A DNA stretch of 64,000 bases from Acidimicrobiales bacterium (GTDB lineage: Bacteria; Actinomycetota; Acidimicrobiia; Acidimicrobiales; RAAP-2). Where the stretch lies: assembly GCA_017883045.1 (NCBI GenBank), contig JADGOJ010000002.1:1-64000 (forward strand), read 5' to 3'. Numbering within the stretch: position 1 is the first letter of the stretch; each line of letters starts with the position of its first letter. The position numbers and the translations under genes are program-made. Shown piece after piece: positions 3,240 to 32,188 of this stretch. The notes under the pieces are model-generated. The model was not told where the DNA came from. It ran no database searches and saw nothing but the letters and a program-made list of their open reading frames with translations.

Positions 3240-4379
3240 TCAGTTCCACTTGCTTTCACGAAGGGCCCGCAGGCCCGGGAGGTCGCCGAGTTCGACGAGC
3301 TCCAACGACGCGCCGCCTCCGGTGGAGACGAAGGTGACGTCACCCTCGAGGCCGTAGGACTGGAGCGCGGCGACCGAGTCACCGCCGCCGACCACCGACA
3401 CCGCGTGCGATGCGGCGACCGCGCGAGCGACCGCCTCGGTGCCGCGGCTGAACCGGGGGTCTTCGAAGACCCCCATCGGGCCGTTCCAGAGGATCGTCGC
3501 CGCCCCGGCGATTGCCTTGGTGAAGGCCGCCACGGTCTCGGCACCCACGTCGAGGCCGACGAATCCGTCGGGGATGCTGACCCCGAAGTCGACCACCTCG
3601 TCGGTCCCGCCGTCGCGGCCGAACGGAGCACCCTCGGGCAGGCCCCTCGAGTCGTTCGGGACGAGGACCCGGCCACCGGCAAGGAGCGACGCGCACTCCT
3701 CGACGTGCGTTGGGTCGAGGATCGAGGCGCCGATGGTGTGCCCGAGCGCGACCTCGAACGTGAAGGCCATGCCGCCCCCGACGATCACGGTGTCGGCCTT
3801 CTCGGCCAGGACCTTGACGATGCCGAGCTTGTCGGCCACCTTGGCCCCGCCGACGATCGCCACGAACGGGCGCGCCGGGCTCGCCAGCAGTCCCTGGATC
3901 GTCGCGACCTCGCGCTGGAGGTTGGGACCCGCGGCGCTGGGGATGAGCGTCGGGGGGATCATGATCGACGCGTGGGCGCGGTGCGATGCGCTGAAGGCCT
4001 CGTTGACGTAGTAGTCGAAGCCTTCGACGAGCGAACGCCCGAACTGCGGGTCGTTGGCCTCCTCACCGGGATTGAAGCGGAGGTTCTCCAAGAGCTCGAC
4101 GTTCGGGCACAGCTCGGCCAGGCGACGGCGCACCGGTTCGACGCTGTACTTGGCCACGACCTGCCCCTTCGGACGGCCGAAGTGCGTGCAGGCGACCACC
4201 GTCGCCCCGCGAGCGAGCAGGTCCACGAAGAGGGGCACCGTCGAGCGGATGCGAAAGTCGTCGGTGACCTGCACGACGCCGTCGATCTCGGCCACCGGAG
4301 TGTTGAAGTCCACGCGCACGAGGACCTTCTTGCCGGCGAGACTCCCCCAGCGCTCGTAGGAAGGCAGGGAGGTCGTCAC
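3240..4379 (-). CDS. pgk: Phosphoglycerate kinase
   Basis: VRVDFNTP, PFVAIVGGAKVADKLG, GGGDSVAAL motifs. Confidence 0.98.
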   Translation of the reverse strand: MTTSLPSYERWGSLAGKKVLVRVDFNTPVAEIDGVVQVTDDFRIRSTVPLFVDLLARGATVVACTHFGRPKGQVVAKYSVEPVRRRLAELCPNVELLENLRFNPGEEANDPQFGRSLVEGFDYYVNEAFSASHRAHASIMIPPTLIPSAAGPNLQREVATIQGLLASPARPFVAIVGGAKVADKLGIVKVLAEKADTVIVGGGMAFTFEVALGHTIGASILDPTHVEECASLLAGGRVLVPNDSRGLPEGAPFGRDGGTDEVVDFGVSIPDGFVGLDVGAETVAAFTKAIAGAATILWNGPMGVFEDPRFSRGTEAVARAVAASHAVSVVGGGDSVAALQSYGLEGDVTFVSTGGGASLELVELGDLPGLRALRESKWN

Positions 4380-28231: not shown

Positions 28232-28471
28232 ATGGACCGCAACGAAGCTCTAACGAAATTCACCGATAACGCCGTCGAGGTGCTGGCGGTGGACCCCTCG
28301 AAGGTGACGATGGAAGCCTCCTTCGCCGACGACCTCGGTGCCGACAGCCTCGACCTGGTCGAGCTCGTCATGGCCCTCGAAGAGACGTTCGACATCGAAG
28401 TCGCGGAAGACGAGCTCAAGGACATCCGAACCGTCGGCGAAGCCTTCGAACTCATCTACGCCAAGCTGTAG
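28232..28471 (+). CDS. acpP: Acyl carrier protein
   Basis: [21 protein letters not shown] phosphopantetheine site; AAAGGGG Shine-Dalgarno. Confidence 0.97.
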
Positions 28472-29670
28472 TGCAGGTAGCCGTCACCCCATCGGGGCCG
28501 GTACAGGGTCGCCGGGTCGCCGTCACCGGGCTCGGGGCACTCACGTGCGCGGGCATCGGCGTGGACGCGCTGTGGAGCGCGCTGGCCAAGAGCACCGCGC
28601 CCGAGAGCAAGCGCATCGCGCCCTTCGACGCCTCGCACATCGGCGGACCCAAGGAGTTGCGCCGCCTCGACCCCTTCTCGCTCTACGCGTTGATGGCCGC
28701 CGACGAGGCCTGGAACCAGAGCGGTCTCACCGGACCGATCGTCGACGCGGGCAGCATCGTCACCACCGGCATCGGTGGGCTTCAGACCGTGATCGAGCAG
28801 CTGCGCATCCTCAATGAGAAGGGTCCCGACCGGGTCTCGCCCTTCATGGTGCCCATGATGATGCCCAACGCCGCCACCGCCGCGGTCTCGATGCGCTTCG
28901 GTCTGGGTGGGCCGTGTGAGACGGTGACCACCGCCTGCGCGGCTGGGACCCACGCGATCGGCAACGCCGCGCGGCTCGTCGCCACCGGTCGCAGCACCGT
29001 CGCGATCGCCGGCGGGGCCGAGGCCGTGATAGTGCCGATCGCCGAAGCCGGGTTCCGCAACATGACCGCGCTCAGCAGCGGCGACTTCTCGCGGCCTTTC
29101 GACGTCGACCGCGACGGCTTCGTCATGGGCGAGGGTGCGGGGATCGTCGTGCTCGAAGAGTGGGAGCACGCGCTCGCGCGCGGCGCCACCATCTACGCCG
29201 AGGTCCTCGGCGCCGCCTCGACCGCCGACGCCCACCACATCACCGCACCCGACCCCTCGGGCCACGGCGCCATCCGCTGCATGGAGTTGGCGTTGGTCGA
29301 CGCCGGCGTCAGCGCGACGGACGTCTCGCACATCAACGCCCACGGCACCTCGACCCCGCTCAACGACCTGGCCGAGTCGGTCGCCGTGCGTCACGTCTTT
29401 GGCGACCACGCTCCGCCCGTGACCTCCATCAAGGGCCACCTGGGGCACTCGCTCGCCGCCGCCGGCGCGCTCGAGGGCGTGGTCTCCGTGATGACCTTGC
29501 TCAATCAGTTGATCCCACCCACCGCCGGCACGGTGAACGTCGACCCCGAGTGCGGGCTCGACGTGGTCATCGGCGAACCGCGCAGGGCCGACATCGAGGT
29601 GGTGCTGTCGAACTCGTTCGGTTTCGGCGGCCATAACGGCAGCGTGGTCTTTCGCCGCTTCAACGGCTGA
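28471..29670 (+). CDS. fabF: 3-oxoacyl-ACP synthase II
   Basis: TTACAAGTHAIG active site, NAHGTSTPLND, KGHLGHSLAAAG. Confidence 0.97.
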   Translation: MQVAVTPSGPVQGRRVAVTGLGALTCAGIGVDALWSALAKSTAPESKRIAPFDASHIGGPKELRRLDPFSLYALMAADEAWNQSGLTGPIVDAGSIVTTGIGGLQTVIEQLRILNEKGPDRVSPFMVPMMMPNAATAAVSMRFGLGGPCETVTTACAAGTHAIGNAARLVATGRSTVAIAGGAEAVIVPIAEAGFRNMTALSSGDFSRPFDVDRDGFVMGEGAGIVVLEEWEHALARGATIYAEVLGAASTADAHHITAPDPSGHGAIRCMELALVDAGVSATDVSHINAHGTSTPLNDLAESVAVRHVFGDHAPPVTSIKGHLGHSLAAAGALEGVVSVMTLLNQLIPPTAGTVNVDPECGLDVVIGEPRRADIEVVLSNSFGFGGHNGSVVFRRFNG

Positions 29671-30336
29671 TCAGAGCGGCCACTCGTCGTGGTGACGCTC
29701 AACGTAGGTGTGGTCGTAGGCCCAGCGCGCGTTGGCGATGAACTGGCCCAGCAGGACCGGATCCTTCACGCCCGGCGCGGTCTCCACTCCCGAGCGCACG
29801 TCCACACCCCACACCGGGTAGTTCTGCACGATGTCGACGACGTTGGAAGGGTTGAGCCCACCCGAGGCGATCATCGGGGTGCGCACGGCGTCGTCGAGGA
29901 ACAGAGCGAGGCAGTCCACCAGCGAGTCGTGATCGTCAGAGTCGGGCAAGACGAGGTAGTCGACTCCGGGGATCGGCACGGCGAGGTCGGGGTTGCCGAT
30001 GCCGGGCAGTGAACGCATCACCGTGTTGACTCGTTCGGCCACGTAGGCGAGCGCGCCTGACGTGATCGCGCCGTCGAGCTGGACGGCGGAGAGGCCCAGC
30101 GTATTGGTGATCTCGACGACGCGCTCGGGCATCTCGTTTCGAAAGACCCCCACCGAGATCGCGCCCCCGGGCAGTCGGCGCACGATGTCGTGGGCGGCAT
30201 TGACCGAGATCTGCCGGGGTGTGGGACCAAAGTCGAAGCCAACCGCGCTCGCGCCGAGCCCGATGGAGAACAGCGCGTCCTCCTCCGTGGTGACCCCCGA
30301 GACCTTGATGAATAGACCTTCAGTGTTCAACCGCAC
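29671..30336 (-). CDS. TrpF-like (phosphoribosylanthranilate isomerase family) protein with altered active site
   Basis: IKVSGVTTEEDALFSIGLGASAVGFDFGPTPRQIS, PMIASGGLNPSNV, WGVDVRSGVETAPGVKD align with TrpF; expected KxCG reads KVSG. Confidence 0.75.
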   Translation of the reverse strand: MRLNTEGLFIKVSGVTTEEDALFSIGLGASAVGFDFGPTPRQISVNAAHDIVRRLPGGAISVGVFRNEMPERVVEITNTLGLSAVQLDGAITSGALAYVAERVNTVMRSLPGIGNPDLAVPIPGVDYLVLPDSDDHDSLVDCLALFLDDAVRTPMIASGGLNPSNVVDIVQNYPVWGVDVRSGVETAPGVKDPVLLGQFIANARWAYDHTYVERHHDEWPL

Positions 30337-30382
30337 GTGGCGACTCCTTCATCACCACGTTAACGGCGCCACCTGACGCCGC

Positions 30383-31081
30383 TCAGGCAATCGGCTCGAC
30401 GACGACATCCTCAACGGCGTCGAGCAACTCGTCGCCCAGCAGGGTGCGGTGCGCAATGCCCAGGGCGATCACCGTCTCGCCGGTACGCACCGCGCTGGTG
30501 ACGCCCTGGTGGCCCGCGGGCCCCTTCGATCGCAACACCTCGTCGATCCGTTCGAACGACGGACCCGAGGCCCGCACCAGGCGCCACGGAACGCTCGATC
30601 CGCGTGCGTCGAGCCGTCCGACCAACTCCTGGCCGGTGAAGCAGCCCTTGGTGAACGAGATCGTCGACGCCACAAACGAACGGCCGAAGCTGTGCGGCGT
30701 CAACCCACCGGCGAACTCCGCCGGTCCCGGGGCGCCGGCGCGAATCTGCTCAACGATCGTGTGGAATGGTCCCTCCTCCACCTCGACGAGATCGAGGGTG
30801 CATTCGGTGCGCAACAGGAACCGTCGCAAGCGTGCCAGCGCCGCCTCACCGAGCGATCGCGGCACCGTCAGCGCGAAGCCCTCGAAGACCCTCGTGACCT
30901 GGCACGAGGTGATGACCACGCTGTCGGGGGCGAGGATCAGGGCCCACAGACCCTCATCGGGCACCGCCGAGAGGTCCTGGCTCAGTTGGCCCTGGAGGAA
31001 TTGCTCGCTCTGGGGCCCGCGCACGAGGATCCTCGACCACGCCAAGGCTCCCTCACCCGCTGCGCTCGTCGAATCACTCAT
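30383..31081 (-). CDS. YgfZ/GcvT-like folate-binding protein
   Basis: KGCFTGQELVGRLDARG signature. Confidence 0.88.
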   Translation of the reverse strand: MSDSTSAAGEGALAWSRILVRGPQSEQFLQGQLSQDLSAVPDEGLWALILAPDSVVITSCQVTRVFEGFALTVPRSLGEAALARLRRFLLRTECTLDLVEVEEGPFHTIVEQIRAGAPGPAEFAGGLTPHSFGRSFVASTISFTKGCFTGQELVGRLDARGSSVPWRLVRASGPSFERIDEVLRSKGPAGHQGVTSAVRTGETVIALGIAHRTLLGDELLDAVEDVVVEPIA

Positions 31082-31342: not shown

Positions 31343-32188
31343 ATGACTGATTCGTGGCAGCGTTGCACCACCCTGACCCCCGAGCGGCGTTTGGACGTGC
31401 TCAACCTGCTGAACCGCACCGAGTCGCTGCTCGGGCGCGAGGCGATCGACGAGGCTCGCCGGCGCACCGTGGTCCACGGATGGCGGGCCGAGCACTGGTT
31501 GCAGTACCACGGCGAAGTCCTGGTCAAGTACGCCATGGTCAACGGTACCGAGCACGCGATGGTCGAGATGTGCGGTGGCGACGTCGACGAAGCACTGCTC
31601 TCGAACCTGCTCGCAACCCACGAGACCCTCGACTGGTGGACCCGGGGGCCCCAGACGCCCGCCCATGCGAAGTGCCAGGTCGTTCGCACGCTCCAGCTCA
31701 TGCAGGTGGCGTTGCCCGTGGCCTGCGTGGACGTCCCGGCCGGCGCGACGCTTCGCAACTTCGAACCCGGACGTGACGAGCAGGCCTGGCTCGAGCAGAA
31801 CAACGCGGCCTTCGCCTCGCACCCCGAGCAGGGCGCGTGGCTGCTCGCCGACCTCGACGAGCGCACCCGTGAGCCGTGGTTCGACCCCTCGGGATTCCTG
31901 CTGCTCGAGATTGACGGCCGTCTCGCCGCGTCGTGCTGGACCAAGGTCCACGAGCTGCATCCCGACCGCTTCGGCGAGATCTACATCATCTCGGTCCACC
32001 CCGACTTCCAGGGACGCGACCTCGGCCGCGTGATGGTCACCCAGGGCCTCGAGGTCCTTCGGCGCAAGGGCGTCACCCACGCGATGCTCTTCGTCGACGA
32101 GTCCAACGTTGGCGCGAAGGCCCTCTACGAGTCGCTGGGCTTCAAGGTCGTGCGCGACGACCGGCTCGTACGCTTCACGCGCTCCTAG
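31343..32188 (+). CDS. mshD: Mycothiol synthase (tandem GNAT)
   Basis: C-terminal GNAT EIYIISVHPDFQGRDLGRVMVTQGLEVLRRKG...LFVDESNVGAKALYESLGF. Confidence 0.88.
   Translation: MTDSWQRCTTLTPERRLDVLNLLNRTESLLGREAIDEARRRTVVHGWRAEHWLQYHGEVLVKYAMVNGTEHAMVEMCGGDVDEALLSNLLATHETLDWWTRGPQTPAHAKCQVVRTLQLMQVALPVACVDVPAGATLRNFEPGRDEQAWLEQNNAAFASHPEQGAWLLADLDERTREPWFDPSGFLLLEIDGRLAASCWTKVHELHPDRFGEIYIISVHPDFQGRDLGRVMVTQGLEVLRRKGVTHAMLFVDESNVGAKALYESLGFKVVRDDRLVRFTRS

Follow-up and report, generated by a model that had tools for sequence, protein, structure and literature searches.

The open reading frame at 29671..30336 on the minus strand of the window (the whole stretch of 64,000 nucleotides of Acidimicrobiales DNA that was analysed) encodes a TrpF-derived protein, hereafter the orphan, which is best explained as the trpF of the original trp locus, turned into a pseudoenzyme that has probably been recruited to a non-catalytic binding or scaffold role. 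Loss of the catalytic residues with persistence of the fold and of purifying selection is the mark of a pseudoenzyme, and this is the combination found in the orphan. The relevant features of the window are the following:

28471..29670, plus strand: FabF, convergent; downstream border of the old trp operon
29671..30336, minus strand: TrpF-derived pseudoenzyme, 221 aa, GTG start; subject of the study
29782..29802, minus strand: DVRSGVE (179-185), phosphate element after strand 8, kept, with Ser180 replaced by Arg (alignment)
29854..29862, minus strand: Gly-Gly-Leu (159-161), phosphate-binding element after strand 7, kept; missing in loci L162, L166, L167 and L168
29914..29943, minus strand: residues 132-141, in place of the GSG...W substrate loop (alignment)
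29944..29946, minus strand: Pro131 codon, replacing the general-acid Asp126; Pro in 100% of 66 relatives, Asp in 98% of catalytic copies
30094..30204, minus strand: helices alpha2-alpha3 (residues 45-81), of highest conservation relative to catalytic TrpF
30298..30300, minus strand: Ser13 codon, replacing the general-base Cys7; Ser in 97% of 66 relatives, Cys in 98% of catalytic copies
30344..30349, minus strand: ribosome-binding site AAGGAG, 7 nt upstream of the GTG (from the sequence)
30383..31081, minus strand: YgfZ-like protein with a KGCFTGQE motif, upstream and co-directional; also in the ancestral trp operon
31343..32188, plus strand: MshD mycothiol synthase; upstream border of the old trp operon

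The orphan reading frame ends directly against the fabF stop codon. Its product is matched end to end by the Pfam model PF00697 (PRAI; 79.4 bits against a cut-off of 22.7, residues 11-201, profile positions 2-192 of 193), and the closest solved TrpF is that of T. maritima (1lbm), both by sequence (E 4.5e-24) and as the best PDB match in a fold search (E 1.3e-16) with the structure predicted for the window protein by AlphaFold2, a (beta-alpha)8 barrel of the TrpF type (pLDDT 90.7). The full-length homology to TrpF proposed in an earlier, sequence-only reading of this DNA is thus borne out by the Pfam score and by the solved TrpFs. The HisA family model (PF00977) left the window protein unmatched, Pfam giving PRAI only, and a search of the genome with PF00977 listed HisA and HisF elsewhere. 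As the orphans match the TrpF family models, automatic annotation may label them trpF, and such mislabelling would be a trap for metabolic reconstruction.

TrpF depends on Cys7 and Asp126 for catalysis, and its Arg36 binds the carboxylate of the substrate (PMC2667513). The alignment comprised 66 orphans and 53 catalytic copies, with Thermotoga TrpF as the reference for residue numbering. In the orphans, Gly134-Ser135-Gly136, 98-100% present in the catalytic copies, are lost, and Trp141 is replaced by Leu in 94%, the window protein included; in the latter, KxCG reads KVSG, QLHG reads QLDG, and the counterpart of the LLD...GSG...W stretch is YLVLPDSDDHDSLVDCLALFL. The sequence-only reading had indeed noticed the missing Cys, the missing GGxGxxFDW loop and the QLDG motif, all of which hold, the first two throughout nearly all of the aligned relatives; the loss of the general acid (Asp126 to Pro) was absent from its list. 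The active-site changes of the window protein recur in nearly all main-clade relatives, far above chance. Among the 66 orphans, Arg36 is retained in 86%, and GGL (158-160), Asp178, Gly182 and Glu184 are mostly retained, Ser180 is Arg in 91%, and new polar residues (D134, Q171, R181 and N202) are nearly fixed. The window protein keeps the phosphate-binding GG and D-S-G elements.

The same genome encodes, on another contig (C47:7052-7630), the canonical TrpF whose existence had earlier been raised as a point to check, with Cys7, Asp126 and the GSG loop in place; it belongs to a trpC-trpF-trpB-trpA run, with trpD divergent alongside and trpE apart from it on C20. With all catalytic residues present in this second TrpF, the orphan is almost certainly not the organism's PRA isomerase. 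HisA, HisF and Rpe are also all encoded, so that the orphan fills no gap in those pathways, and a function as substitute for HisA/PriA or Rpe was ruled out on these grounds. That the orphan might still catalyse the PRA isomerase reaction, through an unusual active site, could be argued from its homology and fold, and from the TrpF of genome G168, in which Cys7 is Asp with the rest intact, so that the base position tolerates change; however, with Pro for Asp126 in 66 of 66 aligned relatives, the substrate loop gone and a TrpF with all catalytic residues co-occurring, this reading deserves almost no credence. The orphan's residues and the complete second TrpF in its trpCFBA operon make it nearly certain that the protein is not a PRA isomerase, as had been suspected.

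How such a protein came to lie between ygfZ and fabF is answered by its relatives. A trpE-ygfZ-trpC-trpF-trpB-trpA operon is found between mshD and fabF in nine genomes (G005, G015, G124, G136, G180, G181, G182, G184 and G187), all with Cys7 in the in-place TrpF, and the same in-place operon is found, on shorter contigs or in pieces, in G012 and in G168, whose TrpF has Asp at position 7. This arrangement recurs elsewhere in the order, in further genera and families, often adjoining fabF. In the window and in the orphan-bearing relatives, the mshD-fabF interval holds ygfZ and the orphan only, and the orphan still shows a trace of the ancestral TrpF tail at its C-terminus (...FDW to ...DEW). Lying in the interval of the ancestral operon, the orphan is thus a remnant of it rather than a newcomer among fatty-acid genes. 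The earlier description of the gene as sitting beside fatty-acid genes and not in a trp operon is therefore correct for today's neighbourhood, but not for the site, which synteny identifies as the ancestral trp locus.

The phylogeny agrees with this origin. The orphans form a single clade (SH-aLRT 100), which answers the earlier question of whether they are distinct; its sister is the G124 in-place catalytic TrpF, followed by those of G005, G168 and G181, and the operon TrpF copies form a separate group beside the in-place TrpF of G182 and G184. Both the tree and the AU test reject a duplication of the operon TrpF as the source of the orphan; grouping orphans with operon copies gave a p-AU of 0.005. 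The placement of the clade fits one loss of catalysis in the lineage inheriting the original locus. Both trees include a badly trimmed row (L162_G158div, less than 20% filled), which strays in the first tree and, in the AU-test tree, joins its correctly trimmed twin in the orphan clade, its wrong group label bringing the orphan group count to 2.

From synteny, sequence and tree, the orphan would be the vertically inherited trpF that originally belonged to the trpE-ygfZ-trpC-trpF-trpB-trpA operon of this locus. One branch of the genus would rely for tryptophan on a second trp operon elsewhere; trpE, trpC, trpB and trpA would then have gone from the old site, and ygfZ and trpF would have stayed, probably still co-transcribed (synteny shows the arrangement, whereas the sequence of events is an inference). 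By sequence and tree, Cys7, Asp126 and the substrate loop were lost a single time, on the stem branch of the clade, so that PRA isomerisation by the established mechanism would be impossible for the orphan.

The orphan, full-length or in pieces, is present in about 85 of the 99 genomes of the genus. As tallied by hand, 71 genomes carry the main type (one without its first residues), eight a divergent full-length copy and six a copy split by contig ends or gaps; the catalytic operon is in place in 11 others and three have neither. In G175 and G177, ygfZ abuts fabF and the orphan is cleanly lost, so it must be dispensable somewhere; in G145, one of the three genomes with neither, fabF was not found. 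The orphan site is identical in every relative with sufficient flank. A copy in G123 was considered as frameshifted, which is unsupported, the break consisting of unknown bases (X in the translation). No orphan without a catalytic TrpF was encountered among the genomes at least 90% complete; G130 and G176, of only 86% and 70% completeness, are without trpA and a second trpF, but are too incomplete to count as tryptophan auxotrophs with the orphan alone. No second TrpF (PRAI match) was found in the genomes of the family's other genera. A scan of GTDB species genomes yielded 69 loci, in part from the same genomes as the genus set, with titles almost all of Acidimicrobiales or Actinomycetes, and nearly all of the named records are metagenome assemblies. 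Four loci titled Acidobacteria or Saccharibacteria (L084, L101, L106 and L129) have the same Acidimicrobiales gene order and come from mislabelled or contaminated assemblies.

Across same-genome pairs, mean identity is 61% for the orphan, 47% for the catalytic TrpF, 50% for YgfZ, 59% for TrpC, 64% for MshD and 80% for FabF, and the orphan exceeds the catalytic TrpF in 165 of the 166 shared genome pairs. By a simple counting method, in which saturation is possible, its dN/dS lies at 0.18-0.32 for the closest pairs, with a median of 0.31 versus 0.48 for the operon TrpF. A decaying pseudogene would not be expected to show such conservation and dN/dS. A slowly decaying, functionless relic of the dismantled operon would account for what looks like a stepwise loss, first of the catalytic residues, then of the phosphate elements (G010, G138, G158 and G166) and finally of the gene (G175 and G177), but it is a very improbable explanation for a protein that surpasses the functional TrpF in conservation in all but one of those pairs, whose dN/dS of about 0.3 indicates purifying selection, whose predicted fold and ribosome-binding site are intact, and for which internal stops are absent among the matches listed. 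Being catalytically dead but better conserved than the working copy, the orphan probably has a new, non-enzymatic job.

The constraint has also shifted within the barrel. Relative to those catalytic TrpFs of the genus that are still in place, the orphans are more conserved in strand 1-helix 1 (74 versus 64%), helix 2 (60 versus 48%), beta3-alpha3 (66 versus 44%) and helix 8 (69 versus 53%), and less so in the loops of strand 6 (51 versus 74%) and strand 8 (67 versus 78%).

In the divergent subclades, the value holds at 60% for the N-terminal half and drops to 41% for the C-terminal half. The phosphate elements (GGL and DxxSG), kept by most copies, are lost in at least three subclades that retain helices alpha2-alpha3: GG and SG in G138/G158/G010 (Lys11 too, where the N-terminus is visible) and in G166/G171, SG in G144/G148/G157/G159, and one Gly of a phosphate element in G008/G023/G024. 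The G158 protein no longer gives the Pfam PRAI match, yet a full barrel is predicted for it (pLDDT 91.5). With the phosphate site lost in several subclades, ligand binding is not a function common to all of these proteins. Thus, the statement of the sequence-only reading that the phosphate-binding ends are intact applies to the window protein but not to several subclades in which the gene persists, and its suggestion that another phosphosugar may be bound is weakened as a core function of all members. The regulatory role that it offered as an alternative may still apply.

These observations bear directly on the chief rival explanation, namely that the orphan is a new enzyme, which has kept the phosphate site and acts on another phosphosugar via, for example, the newly fixed Asp134, Arg181 or Gln171. 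The retention of GGL and Asp178 in the main clade, together with the near-fixation of D134, Q171, R181 and N202, speaks for it, and the kept GGL and DxxSG could equally signal such an enzyme. It is nonetheless unlikely, given that at least three subclades are without GGL and/or SG while the reading frame is still intact, that Q171 and R181 are missing from the divergent copies, and that no obvious metabolic gap exists, with HisA, HisF and Rpe all encoded.

A different possibility is that the orphan activates, or forms a heteromer with, the working TrpF or another enzyme of the tryptophan pathway. The precedents are TSB-like of eudicots, a dead paralogue of the tryptophan pathway that activates TSA (PMC12727527), and, as cited in that paper, PDX1.2, a dead paralogue of a biosynthetic enzyme with a demonstrated role in vitamin B6 synthesis. 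The co-occurrence of the orphan with a catalytic TrpF in every genome at least 90% complete would agree with such a partnership, although a catalytic TrpF is expected in these genomes anyway; G175 and G177 manage with an operon TrpF and no orphan, and the fast evolution of the operon TrpF does not suggest a fixed interface. We regard this explanation as distinctly doubtful. Like TSB-like, the orphan is a catalytically dead paralogue of the pathway kept by selection, but TSB-like belongs to the TrpB family and has a demonstrated partner, TSA, and the orphan is a dead copy at the original locus with the working copy elsewhere. PDX1.2 shares with the orphan the condition of a non-catalytic paralogue of a biosynthetic enzyme, and differs in enzyme family and pathway, in being eukaryotic and in working with its catalytic paralogue.

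Returning to the favoured explanation, the protein would have kept a TrpF barrel, as predicted; it is under purifying selection stronger than that on the working TrpF, and its conservation has shifted away from the catalytic loops towards strand 1 and helices alpha1-alpha3. Binding or scaffolding without catalysis would most likely take place via this N-terminal helix face, and in most species a phosphorylated ligand may bind at the surviving phosphate site. YgfZ comes first among the candidate partners solely on account of the transcription unit that it shares with the orphan, the two genes being adjacent, co-directional and from the same ancestral operon; the distance correlation between orphan and YgfZ is not above those with FabF and FabG (partial 0.19 versus 0.32 and 0.31). 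The more specific proposal that the orphan is a dedicated partner or regulator of YgfZ or of another housekeeping machine, acting as a sensor of a phosphoribosyl ligand in the majority of species and as a pure protein-protein module in the others, is accordingly a speculative one, with little probability attached to it.

In the open literature searched, no report of a TrpF-derived pseudoenzyme was found, an earlier mention being possible. The orphan resembles TrpF (PF00697) in its end-to-end homology, predicted barrel and phosphate elements and descends directly from a catalytic trpF of the same site, but is unlike it in having neither Cys7, Asp126 (PMC2667513) nor the GSG...W loop, in having no adjacent trp genes and in coexisting with a TrpF that has the catalytic parts. 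In Actinomycetota, phosphoribosyl isomerases of the HisA-related PriA family were reshaped after gene loss (PMC13055916); PriA, SubHisA, SubTrpF, PriB and AdeK are, however, HisA homologues that kept catalysis, whereas the orphan is a TrpF homologue that lost it. The locus offers an unusually complete bacterial record of the passage from enzyme to non-enzyme, with all stages (intact operon, dismantled operon, loss of catalysis, later loss of the phosphate site and loss of the gene) found in living relatives at one site. With the dead copy better conserved than the working one, it is also a good test case for gain of function in pseudoenzymes.

Some further observations concern the pathway itself. 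Although published accounts have trpF regularly missing from Actinomycetota, a genuine trpF within a trp operon is general across the Acidimicrobiales, which bears on the timing of the origin of PriA. TrpC and TrpF domains share a single open frame, likely a TrpC-TrpF fusion, at L056:3677-5632 (G001) and L059:2803-5757 (G003), and several more genomes of the genus have TrpF open frames of about this length. The only TrpF found in G168 (L149, approximately 3395-4030, plus strand) reads KIDG, with Asp for Cys, and has the GSG loop and Asp126 intact; HisA and PriA carry Asp at the general-base position, and this protein is possibly, as judged from its residues, an active Asp-base TrpF. In G018 and G184, 96-97% complete, no HisA/HisF match above 30 bits was obtained, rpe being present and G018 retaining the orphan, so that histidine auxotrophy is possible in both. 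Finally, ygfZ lies between trpE and trpC in loci L062, L139-L143, L145, L147-L149, L151 and L153-L156, from several families of Acidimicrobiales, and its presence inside the trp operon is an unexplained link of an iron-sulfur/folate protein to tryptophan synthesis.
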